Shown here piece after piece: positions 1,898 to 38,677 of a stretch of DNA of 39,099 nt. This DNA is from a virus. A model generated the notes under the pieces. The model did no database searches, had not been told where the DNA came from, and worked only from the letters and a program-made list of their open reading frames with translations. The position numbers and the translations under genes are program-made. The stretch covers positions 1-39,099 of IMG/VR virus record IMGVR_UViG_3300035660_000034. The stretch is one strand, 5' to 3'. Every line of letters starts with the position of its first letter. The stretch's first letter is position 1.

Positions 1898-2749
1898 TCA
1901 TATCAATTCTACCCCGAATTTATCGGTTTTTTGTTTCTCGCATTGTGCATTAGGTTTATCTTCGGCATCATCTGGTTCTTCGCCCCGCAACGACTTCGCC
2001 ATCGGAGAGTTCCCGAATCCCATGGATTCGAGTTGCGCGAGGTCGTCCTGCACCGAGGACTGGGCCGGCACCATGGGCAAAACTGGATGGCGCCGTTCCC
2101 AGGTCCGGACCGCGGCATGCCAGTTCTTCATCGGGTTTTTACCGATGAGCCAGCCTTTGGATTCGTAGAAGTCCCGAAACATCTGCGCGTCAACCGCGTT
2201 TTTTCGTTCCAAGCAGTAGGCTTTTATTTCTTCGAGATTTGGTTTTTTGAAGACAGCACTCCCCTTGGGGGGAGCTTTAATTTTAGGCAGTTTTAAAATT
2301 AAAGCGGGGGGGCAGTTGTTGGCAAGGGGCAAGGGGCAAGGGGCAAAGGGCAAAGGGCAAGGGGCAACGGCGGGACTAACATGTCTGGACTTGTCTGGAC
2401 TTGTCGGAGACATATTTCCTTCATAAACTGAGAGCCTGTTGCGACTTAGGTACTTTTGGACACCGCCGTCAGCATGGCCTTTCCAATCGTGAATGACGAG
2501 GCGGACTTGTTCGGACTTGTCGAGCCACCGACAGTCAGTAAGGGCGGCGATCAGTGTGGTGGCGTCCTTGTCCCAACCGATACCCCGCGCGATGTCGGCG
2601 TCGGTAAACCTGCCGATGTCCCCCCTGGGGGTATATTTAGCTGCCCAATGCCAGAGGGCTTCAAGAATACCCACGGCTTGGTACTTGGGAATTTTGAGTA
2701 CATCCATCAAGGCGAGAGTTTTGGGGTGTTCTGGAGTTCCCCTCTTCAT
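1898..2749 (-). CDS. Replication initiator / replisome organiser-like protein
   Basis: A 283-residue protein likely to bind the phage origin and recruit the host helicase. The N-terminus (MKRGTPEHPKTLALMD, then LEALWHWAAKYTPRGDIGRF and a GWD segment) and the LVIHDWKGHAD motif match winged-helix phage replication proteins. The C-terminus has FRDFYESKGWLIGKNPMKNW, typical of such proteins. The middle is a low-complexity Pro/Leu-rich linker encoded by copy A of the composite repeat (2232-2417), with ACAAGTCC iterons inside the gene as in lambda O. The ATG at 2747-2749 has GGGAGGT upstream. Longer in-frame readings are rejected because they run through the endonuclease gene's 3' end. Confidence 0.8.
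   Translation of the reverse strand: MKRGTPEHPKTLALMDVLKIPKYQAVGILEALWHWAAKYTPRGDIGRFTDADIARGIGWDKDATTLIAALTDCRWLDKSEQVRLVIHDWKGHADGGVQKYLSRNRLSVYEGNMSPTSPDKSRHVSPAVAPCPLPFAPCPLPLANNCPPALILKLPKIKAPPKGSAVFKKPNLEEIKAYCLERKNAVDAQMFRDFYESKGWLIGKNPMKNWHAAVRTWERRHPVLPMVPAQSSVQDDLAQLESMGFGNSPMAKSLRGEEPDDAEDKPNAQCEKQKTDKFGVELI
2232..2417 (-). repeat. Composite origin-like repeat, copy A (inside the initiator gene)
   Basis: Read on the minus strand: two ACAAGTCC iterons, a run of CCCCTTG/CCCTTTG heptamers, a C-tract, then a perfect 12-bp inverted repeat GCTTTAATTTTA / TAAAATTAAAGC with an 8-nt loop, then a short C-tract. Two further ACAAGTCC copies lie at about 2505-2522. Copy B (9707-9909) is nearly identical in the opposite orientation and has one more 21-nt iteron unit. 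Iterons plus an AT-rich palindrome inside an initiator gene resemble a lambdoid origin. Confidence 0.75.
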
Positions 2750-2844
2750 TGCGGCATTACCTCCCTCTCCATTCCAGTTCGGGCCTGGCTCGTTCGGCGG
2801 CGCCTCCGGCGGCGCCTGCGGGCAACCGCGGGCGGGCGAATGTT

Positions 2845-3195
2845 CTACATCTTGCCCCAGCAGACGCCAGAGATGTTCCCGCAAGCGCACCGCAAAATGG
2901 AAAACGACTGTAGGTCCCGGATGCAGGTTGCCCATTCCTGCGTAGCATAACGCAGGACATGCCAACCCATCATTTCAGCCATCCGGTACTTCTCCATATC
3001 GGCCAGGTATCCTTTCCCCCGGACGTGCCGGCCGCGGCCTCGGCGCCCACCCCAAATACCGCCCTCAATCTCGACGGCGAGTTTCTGGTAAGGCCAGGCA
3101 AAATCGAAGCGCCATTTTCGAATCTCATGGAACCTATATTCGGGAATGGGTCTTTGGATCCCGGCGGCCTCGAAAACTTCAGGTGTGAGTTCCAC
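2845..3195 (-). CDS. PD-(D/E)XK-like endonuclease
   Basis: A 116-residue protein resembling small phage Vsr/VRR-type nucleases. Visible signature: HEIRKWRFDFAWP, then LAVEIEGG, then a GRHVRGKGY loop and DMEKYRMAEMMGWHVLRYA. The Asp of RFDF and the Glu pair of EIEGG are the likely metal ligands; the usual Lys after the Glu pair is not obvious. A resolvase or repair nuclease role would fit its place beside recT and the replication gene, but that is inference. Start is GTG at 3193-3195 with AAGGA upstream. The last ~12 codons contain an 18-nt stretch identical to the start of the late gene at 19839, so the C-terminus may be altered. Confidence 0.8.
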   Translation of the reverse strand: MELTPEVFEAAGIQRPIPEYRFHEIRKWRFDFAWPYQKLAVEIEGGIWGGRRGRGRHVRGKGYLADMEKYRMAEMMGWHVLRYATQEWATCIRDLQSFSILRCACGNISGVCWGKM

Positions 3196-3526: not shown

Positions 3527-4326
3527 TATAATTTTTCTCCTATCCTTTCCTCGATCCATGAAAGTTGCATGACTCGTTCGGCAACATGCGCGGCCCGTGC
3601 TCTTTCATCCTCTATGGATGAAGCGCGTTCTGCCGCAGCACATGTGGCCATATCCGCCGCCAGCACTGCCGCATGGGTCACCTCTCTGCTCGCTACTCGT
3701 TCCGCCACTCGCTCCGCTCGTTCCGCCCATGTACTTCCGCGAGATCGTTCCGCACACCAGCGCGCATAAGCAATCATATCTCCACGGTCCCATCTCAATT
3801 TTCGCGTGAATCTGAACGACCGGCAGAAAAAATCCCCGGCCGCATCCTTTAGTTCGCGAGGTTCAACCTCCCATAATTCGGTTCCACACCACTTAGACAC
3901 CTGCTTGGCGGACAGGACAGAAAATGCATTTCTGCTCGGAATCAGACTGCCCACAATATCCGGTTGCCATCCATCCATGACATAACTCCCATATCCATAG
4001 ACTGGCCATCCGCCCGCCGTCCATTTGTAGTATTTCATCATCGCGCGCCGCCGCTCAAGTGCGTTGGATGTCCGGTTCAATGCGTATTGGATTTTCGCGT
4101 CCATGCCAAGAAGATTGTGGACTACGTCTTCCGGCGTGGTCGGGCGGCACATGGTCTCGACGACACGCCCCTTGACCTCGCCCCAGCAGATGTCCGTCAC
4201 GTTGTCATCCCATCCGTCCTCGGCATCGTCGCGGTCCATGTCCAGCGCCTTCTCGGCGCGGGCCTTGGCTCCTGCTGGCGTCTCGTGAAACTTGAAACCG
4301 CCTTCGTGGTCGTAGCTGAAGAACAT
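3526..4326 (-). CDS. Hypothetical protein with Ala/Glu-rich C-terminal helix, 266 aa
   Basis: Unrecognised overall. The N-terminal ~75 residues (MFFSYDHEGGFKFHETPAGA, then an acidic helix, VTDICWGEV) look like a small stand-alone phage protein family. The middle (about 100-190) is Trp- and Tyr-rich and may be a separate domain. The last ~70 residues are a repetitive Ala/Arg/Glu helix (AERAERVAERVASREV), which probably forms a long helix or coiled coil. The ATG at 4324-4326 has GGAG upstream. The gene sits between recT and the 115-residue gene in the same operon, 35 bases after the recT stop. Function unknown. Confidence 0.7.
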   Translation of the reverse strand: MFFSYDHEGGFKFHETPAGAKARAEKALDMDRDDAEDGWDDNVTDICWGEVKGRVVETMCRPTTPEDVVHNLLGMDAKIQYALNRTSNALERRRAMMKYYKWTAGGWPVYGYGSYVMDGWQPDIVGSLIPSRNAFSVLSAKQVSKWCGTELWEVEPRELKDAAGDFFCRSFRFTRKLRWDRGDMIAYARWCAERSRGSTWAERAERVAERVASREVTHAAVLAADMATCAAAERASSIEDERARAAHVAERVMQLSWIEERIGEKL

Positions 4327-4361
4327 GCTCACTCTCCTTCCGTGCGCGACCCCATTCCCGA

Positions 4362-5219
4362 CTATCCCAGCGGGACCTGTTCGTCCCCGGCGCCCCACTC
4401 CTTATCGAATCTCTTTTTCAACTCGGCGTCCAGAGTCAGATTATCCGGAACGTTCGCCAACCTTTGCGTAAGCGTTTCTCCTGCTGATAGTTTTCGTTCT
4501 TCGGCTTTCCATTCGGCCTCCTGGGCTTCCTCGATACTTATGGCTTGGTCCAGAGCCGGCGAGAGTTGAAGCATCTTGCAGATAATGCGAATCGGTTTGG
4601 ATTTTGCCATGGCTTCCCAACCGCCCACGGCCTGCCAGGGGCTGAACTTGCCTTTTTTCTCGGCCATGTTCATCCGGCGCCGTTCTTCGATTTCCTCGAA
4701 CGTCATCACGTGGAACACCGGAGGGCCACTCTTTAGGTTGCACAGTGCCCAAACATACGTAACCTGCGCGTCTTTTTTGAATTTTGGTTTATGCCTCAAG
4801 AACGGCGTTGTCCCGTATTCAAATTCAAACTCATCTCCCGCCGTCACGATACCAGCCGTGAACGATGCCACCCGGTCGCTCATGTATGCCAGGTGCATCA
4901 GACCGCGATAGCCGACTTGATAGCAGACCTTGCCTTCGCGCGGGATCAGATAGGCATGGCCCAAATTCTTTTCAAGGCTTAGCCCCACGATTGCCGCATT
5001 CACGGCGGCCACGCAGAGACTGGTTCTGTCGAGTTCGAGTAGATATTGATTGTCGTTGCAGACGTTGATGAGGTTCTGAATGAATTTGGCCACGGCATCG
5101 TCTGACCCCAGTATGACCCGAAAGCGAGTCATCCATTCAGGAGTGAAAGTGGCTTTAATGGCGCTTGCGATGACATTCGGGCTGGGCCTCCAGGTTTCGT
5201 CAGGCCACGTCGTCGTCAC
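4362..5219 (-). CDS. recT: RecT-family single-strand annealing protein
   Basis: A 285-residue protein that coats and anneals single-stranded DNA in phage recombination. RecT signatures are clear: LSLEKNLGHAYLIPREGKV, then QVGYRGLMHLAYMSD and FEFEYGTTPFLRHKP, followed by YVWALC and FSPWQAVGGWEAMAKS-type segments. It pairs functionally with the YqaJ exonuclease at 8374-9267, although several genes lie between. The start is GTG at 5217-5219 with AGGAGG 7 bases upstream. The last 11 codons are a copy of a segment from the exonuclease gene (35 identical bases), so the natural C-terminus has been replaced or extended. Confidence 0.93.
   Translation of the reverse strand: MTTTWPDETWRPSPNVIASAIKATFTPEWMTRFRVILGSDDAVAKFIQNLINVCNDNQYLLELDRTSLCVAAVNAAIVGLSLEKNLGHAYLIPREGKVCYQVGYRGLMHLAYMSDRVASFTAGIVTAGDEFEFEYGTTPFLRHKPKFKKDAQVTYVWALCNLKSGPPVFHVMTFEEIEERRRMNMAEKKGKFSPWQAVGGWEAMAKSKPIRIICKMLQLSPALDQAISIEEAQEAEWKAEERKLSAGETLTQRLANVPDNLTLDAELKKRFDKEWGAGDEQVPLG
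4363..4397. repeat. 35-nt direct repeat, copy in recT
   Basis: Identical over 35 bases to 8882-8916 and read in the same frame (GAGDEQVPLG) in both genes. Here it forms the end of recT and supplies its TAG stop. In the exonuclease gene it continues into the conserved YYLQCQHN segment, so the exonuclease copy is probably the source. Confidence 0.9.
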
Positions 5220-5241
5220 GGTCAACCTCCTCTTGTTCGGC
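5220..5241 (+). other. Possible half attC-like site upstream of recT
   Basis: GGTCAACC at 5220-5227 and GTTCGGC at 5235-5241, separated by 7 bases. They resemble the right half of the attC-like sites. No matching left half is found nearby. It lies between the stop of the Cys-rich gene and the recT start and includes the recT ribosome binding site. Weak evidence. Confidence 0.25.
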
Positions 5242-5250
5242 TTGATGCTT

Positions 5251-6003
5251 CTAGCCCGCGCATCCAGTGCGTCCTTCCGCCGACGCCTTGCGTTCAGCCG
5301 CAGCGCGGTTGCGTGCGCAGGTCTTGGAATCCACCGGGTAGTGCAAGTCTCCATCTTTGGGGGACACGTTTACACCGTGTGCCGAGTCCCACAGTATGCG
5401 CACCACCCGCACTTGTAACGGTGGCAGGTATCCGACCCAGTGCGCTCCGCAGTTACAGTACCAAGAGACGTGTTCCAGCGAACTGGCGTCAGCCGGTCGC
5501 GTTGGTTGTTGAGTTTGAGCGTCATTGGCGGCTGACTCCCGCCGCTGAGTTCCGCCGTTGGAACGACGCGCCATGTCCCCGTCAACAACCACCTCCTGCG
5601 TTGGCGTGAGGTTTCCGGCCCAGCCGGAGAAACACGCCAGCACAGGAATCCCCGCTCGCTCTACCGCGTCCATTGCCGCCCGGCGCGGCGGCGAGTCGAA
5701 TCCTTCCGGCAGTTGTGCGTCCATCGGCACGACAATTTTGCAATCCCATATCTTGTACTTCATCGCCAGCGGCGTCATGCAGCCACCGTCCCCTCCGCAT
5801 TCCTCGCAGTCTGGGCCGCACTTGCGGCGCGCGGCGGGCACACATGTCCGCGTGCAGTTGTCGCACGGCATCAGGTCGGGCGCTTCGCATCCGCACGATT
5901 CGTTACACAGTCCAGTTGCGCCCACGCGCTTCAGGTGTTCCCCCACGACGTCTTGGACGGTGGCGTTGGTTGCCGAGTTCGGAGGCTGTTGGTCGCTGGT
6001 CAT
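5251..6003 (-). CDS. Cys-rich hypothetical protein, 250 aa
   Basis: Unrecognised, but its segments look like a conserved phage family. A Cys cluster at about residues 33-75 (GLCNESCGCEA, PCDNCTRTC, KCGPDCEECGGDGGC) probably binds two or more zinc ions. It is followed by an ordered domain with IVVPMDAQLPEGFDSPPRRA and GIPVLACFSGWAGN. The C-terminal third has YCNCGAHW and is polar. The ATG at 6001-6003 follows GGAGAGAG and overlaps the upstream gene's stop (CCATGA). It is directly upstream of recT in the operon. Function unknown. Confidence 0.75.
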   Translation of the reverse strand: MTSDQQPPNSATNATVQDVVGEHLKRVGATGLCNESCGCEAPDLMPCDNCTRTCVPAARRKCGPDCEECGGDGGCMTPLAMKYKIWDCKIVVPMDAQLPEGFDSPPRRAAMDAVERAGIPVLACFSGWAGNLTPTQEVVVDGDMARRSNGGTQRRESAANDAQTQQPTRPADASSLEHVSWYCNCGAHWVGYLPPLQVRVVRILWDSAHGVNVSPKDGDLHYPVDSKTCARNRAAAERKASAEGRTGCAG

Positions 6004-6263: not shown

Positions 6264-6500
6264 CTAAGCGTCGCACACGCCGGGCTTGGGGGTTATGGTG
6301 TCCACCTCCTGCCTCCTTCCGGATTGCCGGAAAGTTTTAATTCTCATTAATTTATTAATGTGAAATAGTGCAGACCGAGCAGCTGAGATTGTATAATTAT
6401 TGAATCCCCCGTTTTCTATTTCAGGTTGATGTAGAGCTCCTATATATTCCAAAACCTGAACTGTATTTTTAAAAGAAAGTATGGGGTCTTTTAGTCTCAT
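6264..6500 (-). CDS. Hypothetical protein, 78 aa
   Basis: Unrecognised small protein with a helix LSFKNTVQVLEYIGALHQPE, a polar turn and a second helix SAARSALFHINKLMRI. The ATG at 6498-6500 has GGAGAGGAG upstream and overlaps the stop of the Maf-like gene (ATGA), so it is translationally coupled to it. By eye this gene and the Maf-like gene are richer in A and T than their neighbours, suggesting they entered the operon together. Confidence 0.7.
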   Translation of the reverse strand: MRLKDPILSFKNTVQVLEYIGALHQPEIENGGFNNYTISAARSALFHINKLMRIKTFRQSGRRQEVDTITPKPGVCDA

Positions 6501-8377
6501 GATTTCTCCTCTCCAGGTTTGAAATCCGCCCAGAACTCCATCAACCTTTTCCGCATCTTCGGCCACATGCTTTTAAGTGCGGCCAATTTATCTGTGTGCA
6601 ATGAAGCCTCTTGATAGAAATCTTGAAGCAAATAATCAAAAACGCCTCGCCCGTGAAAACCTATAAAGTCATCGAATGCCGGACGATTGAGTATGCAATC
6701 AGCCAAACTCGGTAACCAATACCGGGATTCTGAATGGAACGGCGGCGTGTCTTTCCATCCTCCTCCTAAGCATTCCCACTCCAAAGATGAAACTCGGTTC
6801 CCGGTATTTTTTATCTTCGCCAGTCCGCACAAATTGTTTACTGACAGTACGGGATTTCTCTTCACCCATTCCTCGAATTCCAGAAGATATGTAACGAACG
6901 CCGGCCGCGTAGGATGTTGTTTTCCGTCATTCCCCAGCACCGAGGATTCCCATTTTACGGCGGCCGCAGACTCTCCAGTCAAATTGCGATAGAGCTTTTG
7001 CGTCTCCTCCGGCATGCCCTCGCAGTGAGTCTTTGTGCCCTTGAAAGCGAAATCGAATCCAAATAGGTTGAGTTCGCTGAATCCCATAAACTTCGCGAGT
7101 TCACATGCGGTCCCACCCACAAACGGCATTCTCTCCATCGTCTCCATGTTATGACAGGCCACCAAAGTTGGAGGCCAAATCCAATAAACCCAGTCAGCCG
7201 GACGGTATTTCCCCCAGTTGGGGTGTGCGTTCCCGGCCACAACGAAACCTTGTTTTGGATTCGGCGTCCGGTCTCCCTGGGTTGCCATCTCAAAGCAATC
7301 GAGTTCGCTGTCAACACAAACCGTTGACATGGGGACAAGCCCATTTTTTAATAGAAACGGGACCGCCGTATCAACCGCGATTATGAAAGCCCGGTCTGGA
7401 ATAAGCTTTGCGCTTTCTTCCAATGTCGGACCTGAACCGCAAATGCAAACTGACCCGCGATACCTGTCCTTTAATTTTCCAACGTGATTGTCCCACTGGC
7501 CGTCGCTGAAATTTTTGATCAGGTTTCTCGTCCATTCATCTCGTTTGATATTCAGGGTAACTGTGTAACTGCGTTCGGCGGTGAAGGTGTTGAAGACATA
7601 TAGACTGAGTTCCTCATTTATTTTGGACAACGCAATGGCCGGAAGCGTGGCCTTGATTGAGATTACATTCAAGCATGGTTGCCCAACAAAGAGAGCCTTC
7701 AACTGTTTTCGTATTGTGGAAGGTGATTTGTCGCCGATGATGAAATACGCGCGCCCGTCAGTTAAAATTCTAGTCAACTTGCGGGCATTCATGGCCGCCA
7801 GGAAAATAGGGGCTTCGGGTTCAATAACCAGTAGCCGCGAGGAGTGATGCAGTTTGGAAAGGATTGTCTCGGCCAGATACCCACAACCGAAGCCGAATAG
7901 GACGAAGAGTTGATTTCTGGGGAATTTATTATCCTTAAGAGTTTCCTCAGCCCACTCCGGCGGAGTCGCCTTGAGGCTCTCCGGGTTCACATGTTCAGTC
8001 AGGATGTTGGTCGGATAGCCGGGCGGATAACCTATGGTCAATACGGGATAACCTCCAACATTTTCTATTCGGACGGATTCAACGGCCAGGCGCGATTTAA
8101 AGGCATCAAATTTGCCATGGATTCGGCCAGTCTGAATCCCGGCATTCAGGAGTTCACAGTTTTTCATTTTGCGCATCTCCTGATTGTTTTGCAGCCAGTT
8201 CGAGCGATACATCGCGCTGCCGCACTTTTGGCAGCGCACGTTTGCCTTTGGGTGCGTCGGGCGCTTGCATTCGAGCATCCCGTCGCACCACGAGTTCCAG
8301 CATCGCCCAACTATGCGGTCCAGCGACACAGCGCCGGCCGCCACCATTTTGCTGGCGTCAGCAAAGCCGCGCGTCAT
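6497..8377 (-). CDS. Maf/DUF115-type glycosyltransferase-like protein with N-terminal zinc ribbon
   Basis: A 626-residue protein. Residues ~310-360 carry CICGSGPTLEESAKLI, then FIIAVDTAVPFLLKNG and STVCVDSE, the core of the MptE-like/DUF115 fold in motility accessory factors (Maf), which transfer nonulosonic sugars to flagellin. Residues ~155-215 (LFGFGCGYLAETIL, LLVIEPEAPIFLAAM) match the preceding Maf domain. Residues 26-52 hold Cys pairs (C26-x4-C31, C49-x2-C52) that look like a fused zinc ribbon; a second possible start at Met71 has AGGAG before it. The first ATG overlaps the exonuclease stop as ATGA. Target unknown: host surface, flagellin or virion proteins. Domain call fairly sure; role inferred. 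Confidence 0.85.
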   Translation of the reverse strand: MTRGFADASKMVAAGAVSLDRIVGRCWNSWCDGMLECKRPTHPKANVRCQKCGSAMYRSNWLQNNQEMRKMKNCELLNAGIQTGRIHGKFDAFKSRLAVESVRIENVGGYPVLTIGYPPGYPTNILTEHVNPESLKATPPEWAEETLKDNKFPRNQLFVLFGFGCGYLAETILSKLHHSSRLLVIEPEAPIFLAAMNARKLTRILTDGRAYFIIGDKSPSTIRKQLKALFVGQPCLNVISIKATLPAIALSKINEELSLYVFNTFTAERSYTVTLNIKRDEWTRNLIKNFSDGQWDNHVGKLKDRYRGSVCICGSGPTLEESAKLIPDRAFIIAVDTAVPFLLKNGLVPMSTVCVDSELDCFEMATQGDRTPNPKQGFVVAGNAHPNWGKYRPADWVYWIWPPTLVACHNMETMERMPFVGGTACELAKFMGFSELNLFGFDFAFKGTKTHCEGMPEETQKLYRNLTGESAAAVKWESSVLGNDGKQHPTRPAFVTYLLEFEEWVKRNPVLSVNNLCGLAKIKNTGNRVSSLEWECLGGGWKDTPPFHSESRYWLPSLADCILNRPAFDDFIGFHGRGVFDYLLQDFYQEASLHTDKLAALKSMWPKMRKRLMEFWADFKPGEEKS

Positions 8378-9267
8378 GTCGCATGCTCCTTATCTGGGAT
8401 GATGCAGAGGGCTTTACCGCGGCGCTCTATTATGCCACCATCAACCCTCCAGCCTTTACCTTCAGCCAGGGCCAGACGGATTCTGTTTTTCAGGTCCTCT
8501 AAATTGGCTTCTTCGGATTTGAAGTTTCCATAGGTAAGGATGGCCTGCCGGGCCAGCCAGTGATGCTCCGGTGGGACGATTACTCTGTCACCCTTGATAT
8601 TGCTATAGACCTTGATGAGCATGTGCTTCTTCTTCTCCTCGCAACTGCCAGCGAGGTCAGCCAGAAATTTCACCGCGGCCTCTTTTTCTGGACCTTGGGA
8701 CGCCAGGGCTTTTTTAATGGATTCGATTTTTCCCCAGGCCTGCCGAGCGGCCACCACGATTTGAATCTGGATTTTACGGTTTTCCTCAATTTGGTAAATC
8801 CGTAGGTCAGTACCCAATAGGACCACGAGGTCCCAATTTTGTTTATTCGTGACCAACATATTGTGCTGGCATTGGAGGTAATATCCCAGCGGGACCTGTT
8901 CGTCCCCGGCGCCCCAATGCCGTAATTGATGGAACCCTGCGAGTTTAAATTCTATCCCATACTCGTACTCGTCCGCGACCGCCCATCCATCGGGGTGACT
9001 GATCAGAAATTTATACGTTTCGTGGCGGTAAAGTTTATCGCCCTCCAGCCTCACGCGGAGGCCGGTCTTGAATTCATAGGCTGCGGCCAGGTCATCCTCC
9101 AGTAATTTGCCCAGCAGCATATTGATGGTCTGTGCGCGCGGCGGAAGCAAACCGAGTTTCCCGGCGATGACATCGTATTCGGTCTGGAATTCTGAGCATT
9201 CAAACGGCGGCAGAGCCGCTATCTGCGAGGCTCCGATACCGGTGAGATGGTCAGCGGATATGCTCAT
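8374..9267 (-). CDS. YqaJ-type viral recombinase exonuclease
   Basis: A 297-residue 5'-3' exonuclease of the YqaJ (lambda-Exo-like, PD-(D/E)XK) family, the partner of RecT in double-strand-break recombination. Motifs in order: GASQIAALPPFE near the N-terminus, GKLLEDDLAAAYE (first acidic residue), LISHPDGW (catalytic Asp), GIEFKLAG (the ExK motif), then YYLQCQHNMLVTN. Start is ATG at 9265-9267 with AAGGA upstream, overlapping the secreted-protein gene by 17 bases. The 35-nt segment 8882-8916 is shared with the end of recT. Confidence in family is high. Confidence 0.92.
   Translation of the reverse strand: MSISADHLTGIGASQIAALPPFECSEFQTEYDVIAGKLGLLPPRAQTINMLLGKLLEDDLAAAYEFKTGLRVRLEGDKLYRHETYKFLISHPDGWAVADEYEYGIEFKLAGFHQLRHWGAGDEQVPLGYYLQCQHNMLVTNKQNWDLVVLLGTDLRIYQIEENRKIQIQIVVAARQAWGKIESIKKALASQGPEKEAAVKFLADLAGSCEEKKKHMLIKVYSNIKGDRVIVPPEHHWLARQAILTYGNFKSEEANLEDLKNRIRLALAEGKGWRVDGGIIERRGKALCIIPDKEHAT
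8882..8916. repeat. 35-nt direct repeat, copy in the exonuclease gene
   Basis: Identical to 4363-4397 in recT, same orientation and frame. In this gene it lies between the ExK catalytic motif and the conserved YYLQCQHN segment. Confidence 0.9.
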
Positions 9268-9616
9268 TCTTAAATCCTTCGAGTATTCTTGAACTTGGCT
9301 CGATGCAAAGTTCGTCATGCAATAAAATCCAGAAGCATGTGACCTTCAGTGCGGCCGGGTCTTTTGCTTTAAGGGAATTCCTATTATCGAAAAACCAGTC
9401 GTAGGAAATGTCCTGGAGCCGGCGACCATCGCCAGTGGAGGGACAGGCGAGACGGGTTGTCGCCTGACTCCAGGACTCATATTCTGTATCGGGGATTTTG
9501 TTTTCGGCAAGCCAATTCTTGGCGTCTTGCAATAATTTGGGCCTGTACTCAAGCCAGAGATTCTCTTCTGATAGAAGAGAAAAGGAAAGGAATAACAGAA
9601 TCAAAGGTAGGTGCAT
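9251..9616 (-). CDS. Putative exported protein, 121 aa
   Basis: First gene of the leftward operon. It begins MHLPLILLFLSFSLLSEENL, a hydrophobic stretch that would act as a signal peptide or membrane anchor, then a soluble polar domain with several Trp and Cys residues (TTRLACPS, FFDNRNS, CFWILLHDELC). The ATG at 9614-9616 follows GGAGGG; the longer in-frame reading would enter repeat copy B. Not recognised. An early exported phage protein could alter the host envelope or block superinfection, but nothing in the sequence proves this. It overlaps the exonuclease start. Confidence 0.65.
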   Translation of the reverse strand: MHLPLILLFLSFSLLSEENLWLEYRPKLLQDAKNWLAENKIPDTEYESWSQATTRLACPSTGDGRRLQDISYDWFFDNRNSLKAKDPAALKVTCFWILLHDELCIEPSSRILEGFKNEHIR

Positions 9617-9678: not shown

Positions 9679-9706
9679 GGAAAAAATAAAAATTTTCCAT
9701 TGACAA

Positions 9707-9909
9707 ATATATCTCCGACAAGTCCAGACATGTCTCCGACAAGTCCAGACAAGTCCAGACATGTTAGTCCCGCCGTTGCCCTTTGCCCTTTGCCCCTTGC
9801 CCCTTGCCCCTTGCCCCTTGCCAACAACTGCCCCCCCGCTTTAATTTTAAAACTGCCTAAAATTAAAGCTCCCCCCCCCAAGGGGTGTGTTGTTTTCAAA
9901 AAACCAAAT
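9707..9909 (+). repeat. Composite origin-like repeat, copy B (divergent intergenic region)
   Basis: Same order as copy A but on the plus strand: three ACAAGTCC iterons within CTCCGACAAGTCCAGAC units, a tract of CCCTTTG and CCCCTTG heptamers, a C-tract, the same perfect 12-bp palindrome GCTTTAATTTTA / TAAAATTAAAGC at 9839-9870, and a C-rich end followed by TTTTCAAAAAACCAAAT. It lies between the divergent early and late operons and codes for no convincing protein. It could be a second origin, a regulatory array, or both. Confidence 0.75.
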
Positions 9910-24359: not shown

Positions 24360-24892
24360 TGGATATTCACCGAGACCAGGAATCTCAACCGCGCGAATTG
24401 GTGGGCGCCGAAGGGCCTTTGAAGCAAAAGCCCGACGGCACGTTGTTGGTGGAACTCGCCAGGCCGGGCTATTGTGGTGGTGTGACTCCGGTGGCGGATA
24501 CCGCCTTGGCGGCCGCAATAGCTTCGATGAGCACCGCCATTGTGACGGAACTTGGAGACGATGACAGCGCCGCGAATAGGCTCAGTTCTGTTTCTCTGGT
24601 GAGTGCGGTTTCGATTACGACGGTTTTCACCATACCGGCCGGCAGCAATTACAGCGGCGGTAAGGTCATCATCACGCCGACGACCAATGCGGACTCAGAG
24701 ATTTACGTCTATCATGTGCCGGTGAGTGGAACCGCCGGGACGAGCAACGCGATTTTCTACGGGACCATCAAGGCCGGATGGGGACCGATCATCATGGAGA
24801 TTGGGCGACTTCAGGCTGGCGAGGCCGTGGCGGCGCGAGTGGCCAGCGGCGGGGCAGGCACGGTGACGCTCTACGGGAGGCTTGAGACATGA
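24359..24892 (+). CDS. Hypothetical tail protein, 177 aa
   Basis: Beta-rich protein upstream of the tail fibre gene. N-terminal residues are polar (DIHRDQESQPRELVGAEGPL), then Ala/Ser/Thr-rich, then strands VFTIPAGSNYSGGKVIITPT and EIYVYHVPVSG. No recognised domain. Overlap with the neighbouring genes by 1 and 4 bases suggests it works with the nozzle or fibre, for example as a connector. Confidence 0.65.
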   Translation: MDIHRDQESQPRELVGAEGPLKQKPDGTLLVELARPGYCGGVTPVADTALAAAIASMSTAIVTELGDDDSAANRLSSVSLVSAVSITTVFTIPAGSNYSGGKVIITPTTNADSEIYVYHVPVSGTAGTSNAIFYGTIKAGWGPIIMEIGRLQAGEAVAARVASGGAGTVTLYGRLET

Positions 24893-26361
24893 AGCCTCTT
24901 GCATGGCTGGGCAATCTCTATAGTGCGATTGCGGCCGCTGTCAGCGCGCATGTGGCGGTAAGTGATCCGCATACACAGTACCAGAAGGAGAGCGAGAAGA
25001 GCGCGGCCAGCGGATATGCCAGCCTGGACGGTAGCGGGAAGGTGCCTACGGCGGAACTTCCATCCTTGCCGGTGGCGGCACACGCCAGCACGCACAACGC
25101 TGGTGGCGGGGATGCCATGGCGATAGACGCGGCTGCGGCGACCGGGAGCCTGCGGACGTTGGGGACCGCCGCGACGGCGGCCTGCGCGGGGAACGACAGC
25201 CGCCTGAGCGATTCACGCACTCCAACGGCACACGCCAGCACTCACAACGCGGGCGGCGCTGATGCCATAGACGCCGTTGTAATCCGCAGCGTGAACGATT
25301 TCCGGCTGACACTGGAATCTGGCGTGGCGGTCAGCACCACGGATCAACTCGCGAAGACCACAATCTATCTCACTCCATGTATCGGAAAACAGATCGGGCT
25401 ATGGGACGGCGCCAACTGGAAGATACGTGAAACCGCAGAACTATCACTCGGCGTGACGACTACGCGGACAGGTACAACATCTAATGGCAGTGCAGTCATT
25501 ACTGCGCTGGCAAAGACGACCGACCTTGTAGTCGGCCAAGCCGTAACTGGAACCGGCATCGCAGCCAACAGCGTTATCGCCAGCATTGATTCGGCGTCAC
25601 AGGTAACGCTGGATAAGAACGCAACGGCGGACGGCACAGGAATCAGTTTGACATTTAAATGTCCGGCGACAAAGTGTTACGATTTATTCGTCTTGGATAT
25701 TTCGGGAACGCCAACCCTGGTATATGGCCCCGTTTGGACTAATACAACTACGCCTGCGACGCCGACAACGCAGAAAGATGGTGTAGATGTATTAAGCGGA
25801 GCCTTTAGTATTGGTGGAACGTCCTATGCGGAGGGACGGCTACGTCATGTTGGTTCTCTCATGACGACAACGACTGCGGGCCAGACAGAAAGCTCTGGTG
25901 CCAATAGATTTTTCAGCAATCGCTATAATCAAGTGCCTCTACAGATTAAAACACGTGAGCCTATAGATCAATGGACGTATGGGACCGCCACATGGCGTGA
26001 AATCAACGGTGGCACAACCTCAACTAGGTTTAATTTTATCGCATGTCGAGCAGATATATATATTCATGCTATATGGAACTTCTGGGCCTTTGGAACCAAT
26101 GCGGCTTTTGGGTCTGAGGCTCTCGGTTTGGATAGCACAACTACACCGACGAGCATTTTAGCTGGTGGGGCGGCCGGTGTGTATGCAGCAATAGGTGTAA
26201 TAGGAGAATCATCAATTCCACTTACGCAGCAAGTGGGTTCTAGGGGTGCTCATTACGTGGCATGCATGGAAAAAGCATATGTGGGAACATTTACGGGAAT
26301 TGGAGATAATGGCGATCCGACAACAATCGAAAGTGGTCTAAACGGATTTGTGATGGGATAG
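24889..26361 (+). CDS. Tail fibre / receptor-binding protein, 490 aa
   Basis: Tail fibre. The N-terminal ~125 residues contain two copies of a known fibre motif, AHASTHNAGG followed by DA, with AGNDSRLSDSRTPTAHAS between them. The middle is Thr-rich (GTTSNGSAVITALAKT). From about 25670 the sequence becomes clearly richer in A and T by eye, covering the C-terminal ~220 residues, which presumably bind the host receptor. This suggests that tip was exchanged from another source. It overlaps the gene before by four bases. Confidence 0.8.
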   Translation: MKPLAWLGNLYSAIAAAVSAHVAVSDPHTQYQKESEKSAASGYASLDGSGKVPTAELPSLPVAAHASTHNAGGGDAMAIDAAAATGSLRTLGTAATAACAGNDSRLSDSRTPTAHASTHNAGGADAIDAVVIRSVNDFRLTLESGVAVSTTDQLAKTTIYLTPCIGKQIGLWDGANWKIRETAELSLGVTTTRTGTTSNGSAVITALAKTTDLVVGQAVTGTGIAANSVIASIDSASQVTLDKNATADGTGISLTFKCPATKCYDLFVLDISGTPTLVYGPVWTNTTTPATPTTQKDGVDVLSGAFSIGGTSYAEGRLRHVGSLMTTTTAGQTESSGANRFFSNRYNQVPLQIKTREPIDQWTYGTATWREINGGTTSTRFNFIACRADIYIHAIWNFWAFGTNAAFGSEALGLDSTTTPTSILAGGAAGVYAAIGVIGESSIPLTQQVGSRGAHYVACMEKAYVGTFTGIGDNGDPTTIESGLNGFVMG

Positions 26362-34468: not shown

Positions 34469-35133
34469 GGCCGCGCTTGACGCGCCAAACGTAGAAGAAC
34501 GTCGCGGAAGGCAACGGGCGTGGCATTGCGTATTCTGGTTTTATCTTTGCCCCCGACCATTGCCAGTATGCCAATTCGCCTGGCCCTTTCGTATCCGTGC
34601 TTTGCCAGTGCCTTCGGGTCAATGCGCTGTTCCCCAATGGTCCAATCCAGCTCTAACGGTTTTTGCCCTCCGATGTATAGAAGCCATGTGCCTTTTCGTG
34701 CAATGTGGCCATAGTTTCCTTGCTCGACGTAGCAGGTGTAAGCGTGGCTTACACTGCTTATTTTTATCCACCCGTTGCCACGCCCTGGCTTTTGTATTCC
34801 GAAGTGTCCCCATGCGTGCGAGTCGGCAGGGTGTTCCAGTACTCCGCCAAAATCACGAATTGATTTCAGCGCAGACTCAAAGCATCCGCCGTCGTCGCCC
34901 ATCTTGAACCGGTGCGGCTTCCTGGTGCTACCATGCCAAAACCTGCCCCACCGCTGGCACGGCGGATGCGCCACGACCGGATGCGGCCCACGGTACAACC
35001 GTGCGTCCCGCTTTATATCCCAAGGATCAACACCAGGCAATCCGAAATAGCAACCGTCCGTCTCCACGAATAGGGCTGCAACAGGCGCGAAAATCGTCGA
35101 ACAATTCGGTCGAGCCAATTCGCTATCGCTCAC
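34444..35133 (-). CDS. PPCQ-motif DNA cytosine-methyltransferase-like protein, 229 aa
   Basis: Contains AHPPCQRWGR (residues ~54-63), like catalytic motif IV of cytosine-C5 DNA methyltransferases (PPCQ, Cys nucleophile), and FGGVLEHPADSHAW, where motif VI (ENV) would be. The FxGxG SAM-binding motif at the N-terminus is not seen, so this may be a diverged or partial enzyme, or another family with a similar loop. The GTG start at 35131-35133 follows GGAGGT, all inside attC-like site 4, and overlaps the Mom-like gene by 11 bases. Last gene of the operon before the convergent late operon. Confidence 0.5.
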   Translation of the reverse strand: MSDSELARPNCSTIFAPVAALFVETDGCYFGLPGVDPWDIKRDARLYRGPHPVVAHPPCQRWGRFWHGSTRKPHRFKMGDDGGCFESALKSIRDFGGVLEHPADSHAWGHFGIQKPGRGNGWIKISSVSHAYTCYVEQGNYGHIARKGTWLLYIGGQKPLELDWTIGEQRIDPKALAKHGYERARRIGILAMVGGKDKTRIRNATPVAFRDVLLRLARQARPAQGEVRP

Positions 35134-35153
35134 GGCTCACCTCCGCGTTGGGC
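35096..35153 (+). other. attC-like recombination site (site 4)
   Basis: GTCGAAC (35096-35102) and GTTGGGC (35147-35153), the latter a canonical GTTRRRY. Spacers are AATTC and TCCGC. The inner box GGTCGAGCC pairs with GGCTCACC leaving one extra C on the left arm, as in known attC sites. It contains the stop of the Mom-like gene and the ribosome binding site and GTG start of the PPCQ gene. Confidence 0.65.
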
Positions 35154-35656
35154 CTACGAATCGCCAGCGCGAAACGGTGCTTGCTCACCCTTGGCCTTCG
35201 CTCGACAACGGCGTCCGCTGGCATGTTGCCCCGCCGTCCGTACTTCTGCCCGGTCCTCGCGTCGTAGTAGTCGCAACGTGGGGACTTGCGCTCATCATCC
35301 GTGCGACCATCCTCGCGCCAGTTGGCGGCCCGGTAAATCGTTCCCTTGTGTCCGGCGCTCGGATCGGCGTAGCTGACCAGGTTGCAGACATCCGGGCGGT
35401 GTTGCCTGATCCATTTCACGCTCTGCGCGATCAACCACGTTTCGGCGTTCTGCGGCACCTCGTCCAGCAGGTACAGCCGCGCAAGCTCCCATGTCTTTCC
35501 GCCGTAGCGGACATCGGACTCGCGGGGCGGGGCGGAGTAGATCACGCACCCTATCGGGCGCGTGTCTCGCAGCATCGCCAGCGCCAGCAGGACAATGGCC
35601 GGCCGCTTGTGCAGGTAGTGCGCCCTCACGAACCCGTCAACGGCGGTCACGCTCAC
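35123..35656 (-). CDS. Mom-like DNA-modification acyltransferase
   Basis: A 177-residue GNAT-fold protein resembling phage Mu Mom, which adds an acetamido-type group to adenine in DNA and protects it from restriction enzymes. Matching segments: TWELARLYLLDEVPQNAETW, LIAQSVKWIRQHRPDV, then LVSYADPSAGHKGTIYRAAN. The GTG at 35654-35656 has no good ribosome binding site, and the frame is open upstream without a usual start, so translation may depend on coupling or an activator, as Mu mom needs Com. It ends PNAEVSRER in attC-like site 4. Target base unproven. Confidence 0.8.
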   Translation of the reverse strand: MSVTAVDGFVRAHYLHKRPAIVLLALAMLRDTRPIGCVIYSAPPRESDVRYGGKTWELARLYLLDEVPQNAETWLIAQSVKWIRQHRPDVCNLVSYADPSAGHKGTIYRAANWREDGRTDDERKSPRCDYYDARTGQKYGRRGNMPADAVVERRPRVSKHRFALAIRRPNAEVSRER

Positions 35657-36901: not shown

Positions 36902-37450
36902 CTAAATCTCACGAATGTACGCCACCGGTTGAATGACGCCGGTATCCGCGGCCTGCTTCGCCACCATGGCATCACACGCGATGGCGGAATGCAGTACGTC
37001 GGTGGGTTTCCAGGCGAACTTTACCTTGGCGCCGAGGTTCAGCAGGGCAGTCAAGATTTCCTCCGGCAGTTTTTGCCCGTCAATCACTACTGCACAGGCC
37101 GGCCTGAAATATGTCTCGAATTTCTCGCCGAACTTTTGGCGTAGGTCGGTCTCACACGTCGCGGGAATGGCGGCATAACGGTTTTCCGTCGTGTACCTGC
37201 ACTCGCCGAGTTGAACCGAGGAATAGGGTTTCCCGTCGGCCTGACTCCGCTCGCGCCGATACTCCTCAGCTATCGGCTTCAACTGCTCATCGATGCCTCT
37301 CACCCGGGCATCGAGATCCCCCATCTGCTGCTTCAGTTTCGGCCGTTCGGCGGCCATCTCCGCCAACTCTCCGACTAGCTCCAGCGTCAGCGATTCTGTC
37401 GCCGTCTTTGTCGCCACCGCCGCCGCCTTCAATCGCTCAAGCGTATTCAT
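36902..37450 (-). CDS. Coiled-coil protein, possible Gam-like, 182 aa
   Basis: N-terminal ~80 residues form a strong coiled coil (LVGELAEMAAERPKLKQQMG, DLDARVRGIDEQLKPIAEEY). A smaller globular part follows with GKPYSSVQLGECRYTTENRY and EKFETYFRPACAVVIDGQKL. Coiled-coil phage proteins next to a ligase could protect DNA ends like Mu Gam, but no specific motif confirms it. ATG ATG at 37453/37450, overlapping the ligase stop. Not recognised with confidence. Confidence 0.6.
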   Translation of the reverse strand: MNTLERLKAAAVATKTATESLTLELVGELAEMAAERPKLKQQMGDLDARVRGIDEQLKPIAEEYRRERSQADGKPYSSVQLGECRYTTENRYAAIPATCETDLRQKFGEKFETYFRPACAVVIDGQKLPEEILTALLNLGAKVKFAWKPTDVLHSAIACDAMVAKQAADTGVIQPVAYIREI

Positions 37451-38043
37451 CATCGTCCCTCGCCGTACCTCACCTTGAACCACTCCGGGTTGGCCAAGCA
37501 CGCGCTCAGACCGCCCTTCAGTCCGGAGCTTGCCTTCCGCACCACTACTCCCTCGACATCCGGGTTACTCAGGCCGTGGATGTAGAGGTCCACCATGCCG
37601 GGATTCTGAATGGTCTCCGCCCATTCTATCCCGGAGGGTTTCAACGGCAGCCATGCGTGTTGCATGGTGTGCCCCAGCAACACCGAACGTTCCCCGAAGG
37701 GCGTCCGGCCCAGCCATTGCCCCTCGTACATCAGGATATCGAAGGCTATCAGCCGATGCTCACCGCCCTTCTTGCGAGGGCCAACCCATTCGCAGTCAAT
37801 GGCCAGCGGCAGGTCCGGCCAGCTCATCATCCGCCAGGCCTCCATCACTTCGGCAGGCATGGCCTTTGCCGCGGCGCCGCTGCGTTTAGCCTGCCAGACC
37901 CAACCGCCATCGCAGAGCCATCCGGTCCGGCGGTAGCCATCCCATTTCAGTTGCGCCAGCCACGTGCGCGCCGGCGCCCTGTCCAGCTCACGCAGAAAAT
38001 CCAGCGAGACTGGGCATGGATCGTCTGGCCAGTGGTAGATCAT
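37450..38043 (-). CDS. Minimal ATP-dependent DNA ligase (nucleotidyltransferase domain)
   Basis: A 197-residue protein with the ligase motifs: KWDGYR (33-38, the lysine that takes AMP), DCEW (83-86, motif III), EGVVVRK (164-170, motif IV) and WFKVRY (188-193, motif V). The usual C-terminal OB-fold domain with motif VI is absent, because the protein ends soon after motif V. It may need a partner, act on nicks poorly, or be a remnant. The ATG overlaps the WD40 stop (ATGA). Confidence 0.85.
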   Translation of the reverse strand: MIYHWPDDPCPVSLDFLRELDRAPARTWLAQLKWDGYRRTGWLCDGGWVWQAKRSGAAAKAMPAEVMEAWRMMSWPDLPLAIDCEWVGPRKKGGEHRLIAFDILMYEGQWLGRTPFGERSVLLGHTMQHAWLPLKPSGIEWAETIQNPGMVDLYIHGLSNPDVEGVVVRKASSGLKGGLSACLANPEWFKVRYGEGR

Positions 38044-38558
38044 TTGCGCACTTCCTTCCCGGTGCTCACGTCCCAGAGGCGGATGGTCCTGTCTCCACTT
38101 CCAGAAGCCAGCGTCCGGCCGTCAGGAGAGAAACTGACGGACCAGACCCAACCGTCATGCCCTTCGAATTTGCGCACTTCCTTCCCGGTGCTCACGTCCC
38201 AGAGGCGGATGGTCCTGTCATCACTTCCTGAAGCCAGCGTCCGGCCGTCAGGCGAGAAACTGACGGACGAGACCCAGGAGCTGTGCCCTTCGAATTTGCG
38301 CACTTCCTTCCCGGTGCTCACGTCCCAGAGGCGGATGGTCCTGTCTCCACTTCCAGAAGCCAGCGTCCGGCCGTCAGGAGAGAAACTGACGGACTGGACC
38401 CAACCGTCATGCCCTTCGAGTTTGCGCACTTCCTTCCCGGTGCTCACGTCCCAGAGGCGGATGGTCCCGTCATCACTTCCTGAAGCCAGCGTCCGGCCGT
38501 CGGGAGAGAAACTGACGGACGAGACCCTAGCATCTGCCGTCATCTGCTCTCGTGTCAT
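38040..38558 (-). CDS. WD40-repeat protein with four near-identical blades
   Basis: A 172-residue protein that is almost entirely WD40 repeats of 42 residues: VSFSPDGRTLASGS, TIRLWDVSTGKEVRK and EGH..WV, four times, the last ending right after GKEVRK. The differences lie at a few positions only: the residue before SVSF (S, Q, S, W), DD or GD after GS, G or R next, and DG or SS before WV. Such a propeller usually has seven blades, so four would need to assemble into oligomers. Start ATG 38556-38558 with AAGGAG upstream. Host-derived scaffold or decoy is a guess. Very unusual for a phage. Confidence 0.88.
   Translation of the reverse strand: MTREQMTADARVSSVSFSPDGRTLASGSDDGTIRLWDVSTGKEVRKLEGHDGWVQSVSFSPDGRTLASGSGDRTIRLWDVSTGKEVRKFEGHSSWVSSVSFSPDGRTLASGSDDRTIRLWDVSTGKEVRKFEGHDGWVWSVSFSPDGRTLASGSGDRTIRLWDVSTGKEVRK
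38043..38530. repeat. Tandem 126-nt repeats of the WD40 gene
   Basis: Nearly identical units begin at 38043, 38169, 38295 and 38421, each 126 nt (42 codons). Units 1 and 3 share silent and coding differences from units 2 and 4 (TCA GGA AGT GAT versus TCT GGA AGT GGA), so the array was built by duplicating a two-unit block. Copy number is probably unstable. Confidence 0.9.
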
Positions 38559-38677
38559 GGTTTTCTCCTTGTCGCCCGCAACTCTGTCTGGACATGGAGT
38601 GGCTGGAAGCCTCCGGGCGGCCGGAGTCTCTCCAAGTCTTCGACCTCTTGGCCTTCGACGGCCACCTCCCACCATCG

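Follow-up and report, generated by a model that had tools for sequence, protein, structure and literature searches.

Why should a phage carry, among its recombination genes, an ORF resembling the Maf proteins, which transfer CMP-activated nonulosonic acids to Ser/Thr residues of flagellin and tolerate several donors (PMC11339370)? The question is raised by the virus record IMGVR_UViG_3300035660_000034, a stretch of 39,099 bases (hereafter, the window). An ORF scan of the contig found terminase, portal, major head protein, and internal virion protein genes, and the contig is therefore regarded as that of a tailed, podovirus-like phage. The first-pass annotation had described a full-length Maf-type gene with a zinc ribbon fused to its start, and had considered the gene AT-richer than its neighbors, unusual for a phage, and suggestive of transfer.

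Gene neighborhood of the Maf-like ORF

The ORF in question occupies positions 6497–8377 on the minus strand, begins with ATG, and encodes 626 amino acids, comprising a Cys-rich leader and a Maf-like body of 556 aa that runs from Met71 (6497–8167, minus strand). It belongs to an early leftward operon in which the early genes are rep, recT, and exo. Its placement between the exonuclease and recT genes was confirmed by family matches of both neighbors: a RecE/YqaJ-type exonuclease upstream (8374–9318, minus strand) and a recT ORF downstream (4362–5354, minus strand), for which the likelier start is a GTG at about 5219, preceded by GAGGAGG. The gap of ~3 kb from exo to recT holds the leader, the Maf body, a 78-aa ORF (6264–6500, minus strand) whose start overlaps the Maf stop (ATGA) and whose GC content is the lowest, a short ORF, and a GC-rich, Cys-rich ORF of 250 aa (5251–6003, minus strand) lying between Maf and recT. 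Neither the 78-aa ORF nor the 250-aa ORF gave a family match. No nonulosonate-synthesis or other sugar gene was recognized among the window ORFs scanned, and no flagellin gene was found near the Maf-like ORF.

We compared this arrangement with 58 other viral loci in which a related exonuclease and recT lie on one strand. The two genes are directly adjacent in 56 of them, and the place of the Maf-like gene is thus a cargo interval, absent from most other phages. In another viral contig (L002), two different exonuclease genes of the same type (24–974 and 3718–4725) are about 2.7 kb apart, the second directly before recT.

Several repeats were observed in the window. A near-identical inverted repeat (2237–2417 and 9705–9909; 147 nt at 99%) contains tandem GGGGCAA 7-mers and GACAAGTCCA iteron-like repeats, with one arm inside the replication-initiation gene (1898–2965, minus strand) and the other between divergent operons. 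We considered whether this repeat marks a mobile element carrying the Maf-like gene, and found the idea unsupported: one arm lies in the replication gene and both contain short tandem repeats, which makes a replication origin the likelier explanation; the pair looks like a duplicated origin. Recombination between the arms could invert the entire early operon. A 25-mer from the repeat had no exact match in viral or genome contigs. A 35-bp perfect direct repeat (4363–4397 and 8882–8916) arises because the recT ORF terminates, at its 3′ side, in a stretch of exonuclease-gene sequence read in the same frame (WGAGDEQVPLG), which is either the scar of a recombination event or a join made during assembly. 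At the left end of the contig is a 67-bp repeat (2–68 and 1609–1675; 82% alike), one copy of which lies in a methyltransferase-like ORF. The leftward group at the right end includes a Mom-type DNA modification gene (35123–35656, minus strand; PF25680, E 1.3e-24). An ATP-dependent DNA ligase-like ORF (37450–38043, minus strand; PF01068, E 3.8e-6) and a gene for WD40 beta-propeller repeats (38040–38675, minus strand; 126-bp units, 91% alike) were also found. Anything similar to the WD40 gene was seen in two phage records only (E about 1e-4), and the gene may hint at the host or at a host-derived contig end.

Family assignment and relatives of the product

An HMM search matched residues 285–446 to PF01973 (DUF115/MptE-like) with an E value of 2.1e-20 and a score of 73.6 bits, the curated cut-off being 34.6 bits. 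The corresponding core (7040–7525, minus strand) contains the motifs GSGPT, LLKNGLVP, and GFSELNLFGFD. Residues 159–453 also matched the N-terminal and central domains of the Magnetospirillum magneticum Maf (PDB 5mu5; E 1.8e-6), and these two matches bear out the Maf-type assignment of the first-pass annotation, which a missing PF01973 match would have refuted. Its description of the gene as full-length applies to the frame, which is open over 626 codons, but not to the domains: the N-terminal match to PF20157 (Maf_flag10_N) was weak (E 0.0017 with the whole protein; 3.3e-4 and 20.6 bits with the N-terminal part) and below the cut-off of 23.5, and the tail beyond the conserved core is 104 aa, versus 163 aa in L086, a canonical viral Maf discussed below. 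No similarity to the C-terminal Maf domain was detectable in the 104-aa tail, where there was no 5mu5 match past the core and no Pfam match.

The protein is 22–28% identical to Mafs. Among the 29 columns invariant in four Mafs (L086, 5mu5, and two from Paenibacillus), 21 are kept, and the retained motifs include GxGxG (162–166), EP (186–187), GxGP (314–317), LL..G..P (342–349), and G..E....G.D (432–442). The remaining eight are changed (S to T318, G to D336, and residues of a C-terminal NCSDG-like motif), and the enzyme might therefore be inactive. With the Maf_flag10 flagellin glycosyltransferases, including those of M. magneticum, Clostridium botulinum, and Geobacillus, the phage protein thus shares the central PF01973 domain with its GxGP loop, LL..G..P, and G..E....G.D, and in part the N-terminal Rossmann-like domain (GxGxG, EP). 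It differs from that group in its low identity and sub-cut-off N-terminal match, in its tail (about 163–170 aa in the group), in possessing a Cys-rich leader, and in having no recognized flagellin or nonulosonate genes nearby.

PF01973 also includes the archaeal pterin kinase MptE, a single-domain protein of about 220–240 aa with a DLD motif; in our alignment, the phage protein reads VD at that position, as do Mafs. A profile that included the phage protein reached MptE (8sd5; E 1e-6) and, weakly, the GT42 sialyltransferase Cst-II (1ro7/1ro8; E 0.04), the latter in agreement with a resemblance between the Maf core and Cst-II that has been described in the literature (PMC11339370). Both are distant superfamily relatives of the core, single-domain proteins of about 220–290 aa compared with 626 aa here, and the sequence likeness to Cst-II is weak. 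AlphaFold2 models from the single sequence and from a 4-row alignment were of low confidence (pLDDT 36 and 42), and we therefore set aside the PDB fold search as evidence; with the weak model, Foldseek ranked MptE 8sd5 third, without significance. By these sequence comparisons, the gene product belongs to the PF01973 superfamily, where it is divergent but lies closer to the Maf glycosyltransferases than to MptE.

Close relatives were not found. When the protein, its leader, or its core (the last with E up to 10) was compared by tblastn with 50,697 phage records, no relatives were detected, and pattern scans of viral and genome contigs based on the phage protein itself gave none either; neither PHROGs nor a defence library gave a match; and PF01973 was absent from 50 viral records carrying similar exonucleases. 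The only significant match in a plasmid search was a chromid of Paenibacillus, whose two Mafs of the flagellar type adjoin genes that, read by eye, resemble PseB/PseG/PseF-type enzymes. The viral-contig scan, when confirmed with a canonical Maf, yielded three relatives (L086, L087, and L088). L086 (IMGVR_UViG_3300031839_001743) is a canonical Maf of 623 aa (5mu5, E 1e-48) whose gene overlaps the beginning of a phage 5′-3′ exonuclease gene; endonuclease and metallophosphoesterase genes follow. It resembles our protein in being phage-borne, in having PF01973 and an N-terminal Maf domain, and in adjoining an exonuclease in a DNA-metabolism operon, but it has an HHS motif and a full tail, is only about 25% identical, and neighbors another kind of exonuclease (5′-3′, phrog_107). 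L087 (4337–5002) and L088 (5989–6654) are related contigs; in the structural operon of each, a short distance past portal, lies a gene for a PF01973 protein of 221 aa. These proteins are possible virion-modifying enzymes. A small methyltransferase is encoded near the PF01973 gene of L087. In UniProt, A0A6J7XC21, A0A6J5PG89, and A0A6J5L5C1, from uncultured Caudovirales phages and named after PF01973 ("6-hydroxymethylpterin diphosphokinase MptE-like"), were among the best BFVD hits obtained with the weak model, so that their likeness to our protein rests on a low-confidence structure. Given these contigs and entries, phage-borne PF01973 proteins are already known to databases, and the view that such a gene is unusual for a phage has to be softened. 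In the literature searched, we found no paper on a phage-encoded Maf.

Base composition and the Cys-rich leader

The Maf body and part of the 78-aa ORF make up a low-GC segment (6331–8187, minus strand; GC 0.475, borders approximate), which we take to be an acquired piece; GC-rich sequence resumes near 6330, within the 3′ end of the 78-aa ORF. The exonuclease gene, with a GC of 0.519, is just above this segment, and the 6.5–11.1 kb block has an overall value of 0.507. Third-position GC is 0.54 in the Maf body and about 0.79–0.80 in the leader (codons 1–67; 8177–8377, minus strand), while phage core genes average 0.71 in equal-sized windows. The earlier remark that the gene is AT-richer than its neighbors is therefore true of the Maf body and not of the first ~67 codons (0.79), and the exonuclease is itself fairly low. 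Where this segment begins and ends, neither terminal repeats nor target-site duplications were found above chance. The composition break, taken together with the normal contiguity of exo and recT, supports acquisition from elsewhere, as the first-pass annotation had suggested.

The leader ATG overlaps the exonuclease stop (ATGA), and a ribosome-binding-site-like AAGGAG (8386–8391, minus strand) lies 8 nt before Met1. A second such site, AGGAG (8177–8181, minus strand), is found 9 nt before Met71; among 41 in-frame starts, only three, Met1 and Met71 included, have a ribosome-binding motif of at least 5 nt at a fitting distance. Residues 26–52 of the leader contain five cysteines (C26, C31, C37, C49, and C52) with one CxxC (C49, C52), more than expected in 67 residues from the Cys frequency of the phage (P about 2e-4). 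The leader is a possible zinc-binding module, but its matches to Pfam zinc models (IBR, E 0.0011; Zn_ribbon_recom, E 0.019) were both below cut-off. Third-position GC changes at codon 69 (permutation p 0.0015), beside the Met71 ribosome-binding site, which suggests that leader and body are two ORFs joined in frame. The proposal of a fused zinc ribbon is therefore doubtful, and the leader probably represents a small ORF native to the phage, to which the acquired Maf ORF has been joined in frame.

Judged from this one contig, the join could be due to a one-base indel or an assembly error. Leader and Maf may be separate genes whose fusion reflects the misreading or misassembly of a single base, or else an indel of very recent date, which we regard as a serious possibility, although one short of even; it concerns the fusion only and is compatible with every other reading below. 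Support for the idea comes from the coincidence in place of the third-position GC break and the second ribosome-binding site, and from the overlap of the Met71 ATG with a TGA of the neighboring frame, an ATGA junction like those at exo/leader and Maf/small ORF. The last point is weak, however, as any ATG followed by A yields such a TGA.

We envisage a native mini-ORF, rich in GC and in Cys, behind which the phage acquired the low-GC segment comprising the Maf body and part of the small ORF; the two frames would now be continuous. Translation could then begin both at Met1, through coupling to the exonuclease, and at Met71, from the acquired gene's own site.

Donor, acceptor, and possible function

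The explanation that we favor, although we hold it tentatively and put it just under an even chance, is a joint one: the gene would be an acquired, divergent Maf whose product serves as a cytosolic protein O-glycosyltransferase that uses host CMP-nonulosonate and a non-flagellin acceptor. The GxGP loop would bind a CMP-activated nonulosonic acid of host make, and the sugar would be transferred to Ser/Thr of a folded protein. If so, the donor must be the host's, since no nonulosonate-synthesis gene was recognized in the ORFs scanned. The helical C-terminal domain of Mafs has been likened to flagellin chaperones (PMC11339370), and because this region is short and unrecognizable in the phage protein, flagellin bound in the usual manner is probably not the acceptor. 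The sugar may instead go to the Ser/Thr-rich fibre of the phage itself, or to some other protein of the host, whether at its surface or in its cytosol. The early-operon position favors action on the host.

The main competitors to this explanation differ in the acceptor. A true flagellin-modifying Maf, altering host flagellar glycans to block, for example, later phages that use the flagellum, would be in keeping with the fact that every characterized Maf acts on flagellin (PMC11339370), with the early genes (rep, recT, and exo) around the ORF, which fit action on the host, and with the known interaction of Campylobacter phages with flagellar glycans (PMC4690887, PMC7099621). We consider it unlikely, given a C-terminal region that is short and has no detectable similarity to the chaperone-like domain, and a neighborhood with neither flagellin nor sugar gene. 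Slightly better placed, but still rather improbable, is a glycosyltransferase that decorates the phage's own fibre or capsid. The best virion candidate would be the fibre-like tail protein encoded at 24889–26361 on the plus strand, in which Ser+Thr reach 21.8%, the highest value among virion ORFs, and the two phage contigs with short PF01973 genes close after portal point the same way; Ser/Thr content alone is weak evidence, however, and the Maf-like gene lies in a divergent early operon, away from the structural genes.

The gene may also encode no glycosyltransferase at all, being either cargo in decay or a phosphokinase of the MptE kind. The low identity to Mafs, the changed invariant residues, and the shortened C-terminus speak for this reading, and MptE belongs to PF01973 and appeared, non-significantly, in the Foldseek ranking. 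We judge this quite unlikely, given that the frame is open over its whole length with the core motifs kept, that the protein is nearly three times as long as MptE with an N-terminal Maf-like stretch, and that it carries the Maf pattern VD in place of DLD.

Returning to the acquired O-glycosyltransferase, a broader reading is that tailed phages recurrently take up Maf-type enzymes into early DNA-metabolism operons, where these lose or replace the flagellin-binding end and so turn nonulosonic-acid transfer toward a new acceptor, for example the phage fibre or a host takeover target, with a Cys-rich front possibly added in the present case. As a whole, we regard this scenario as a long shot.

Unexplained PF01973/Maf-type genes have thus been present already in the sequences of a few other phages. 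To our knowledge, protein glycosylation by phage enzymes has been little explored. If the enzyme described here is active, phages could add sialic-acid-like sugars to proteins without a sugar pathway of their own, and a Maf that is shortened in nature would offer a test of which enzyme region selects the acceptor.
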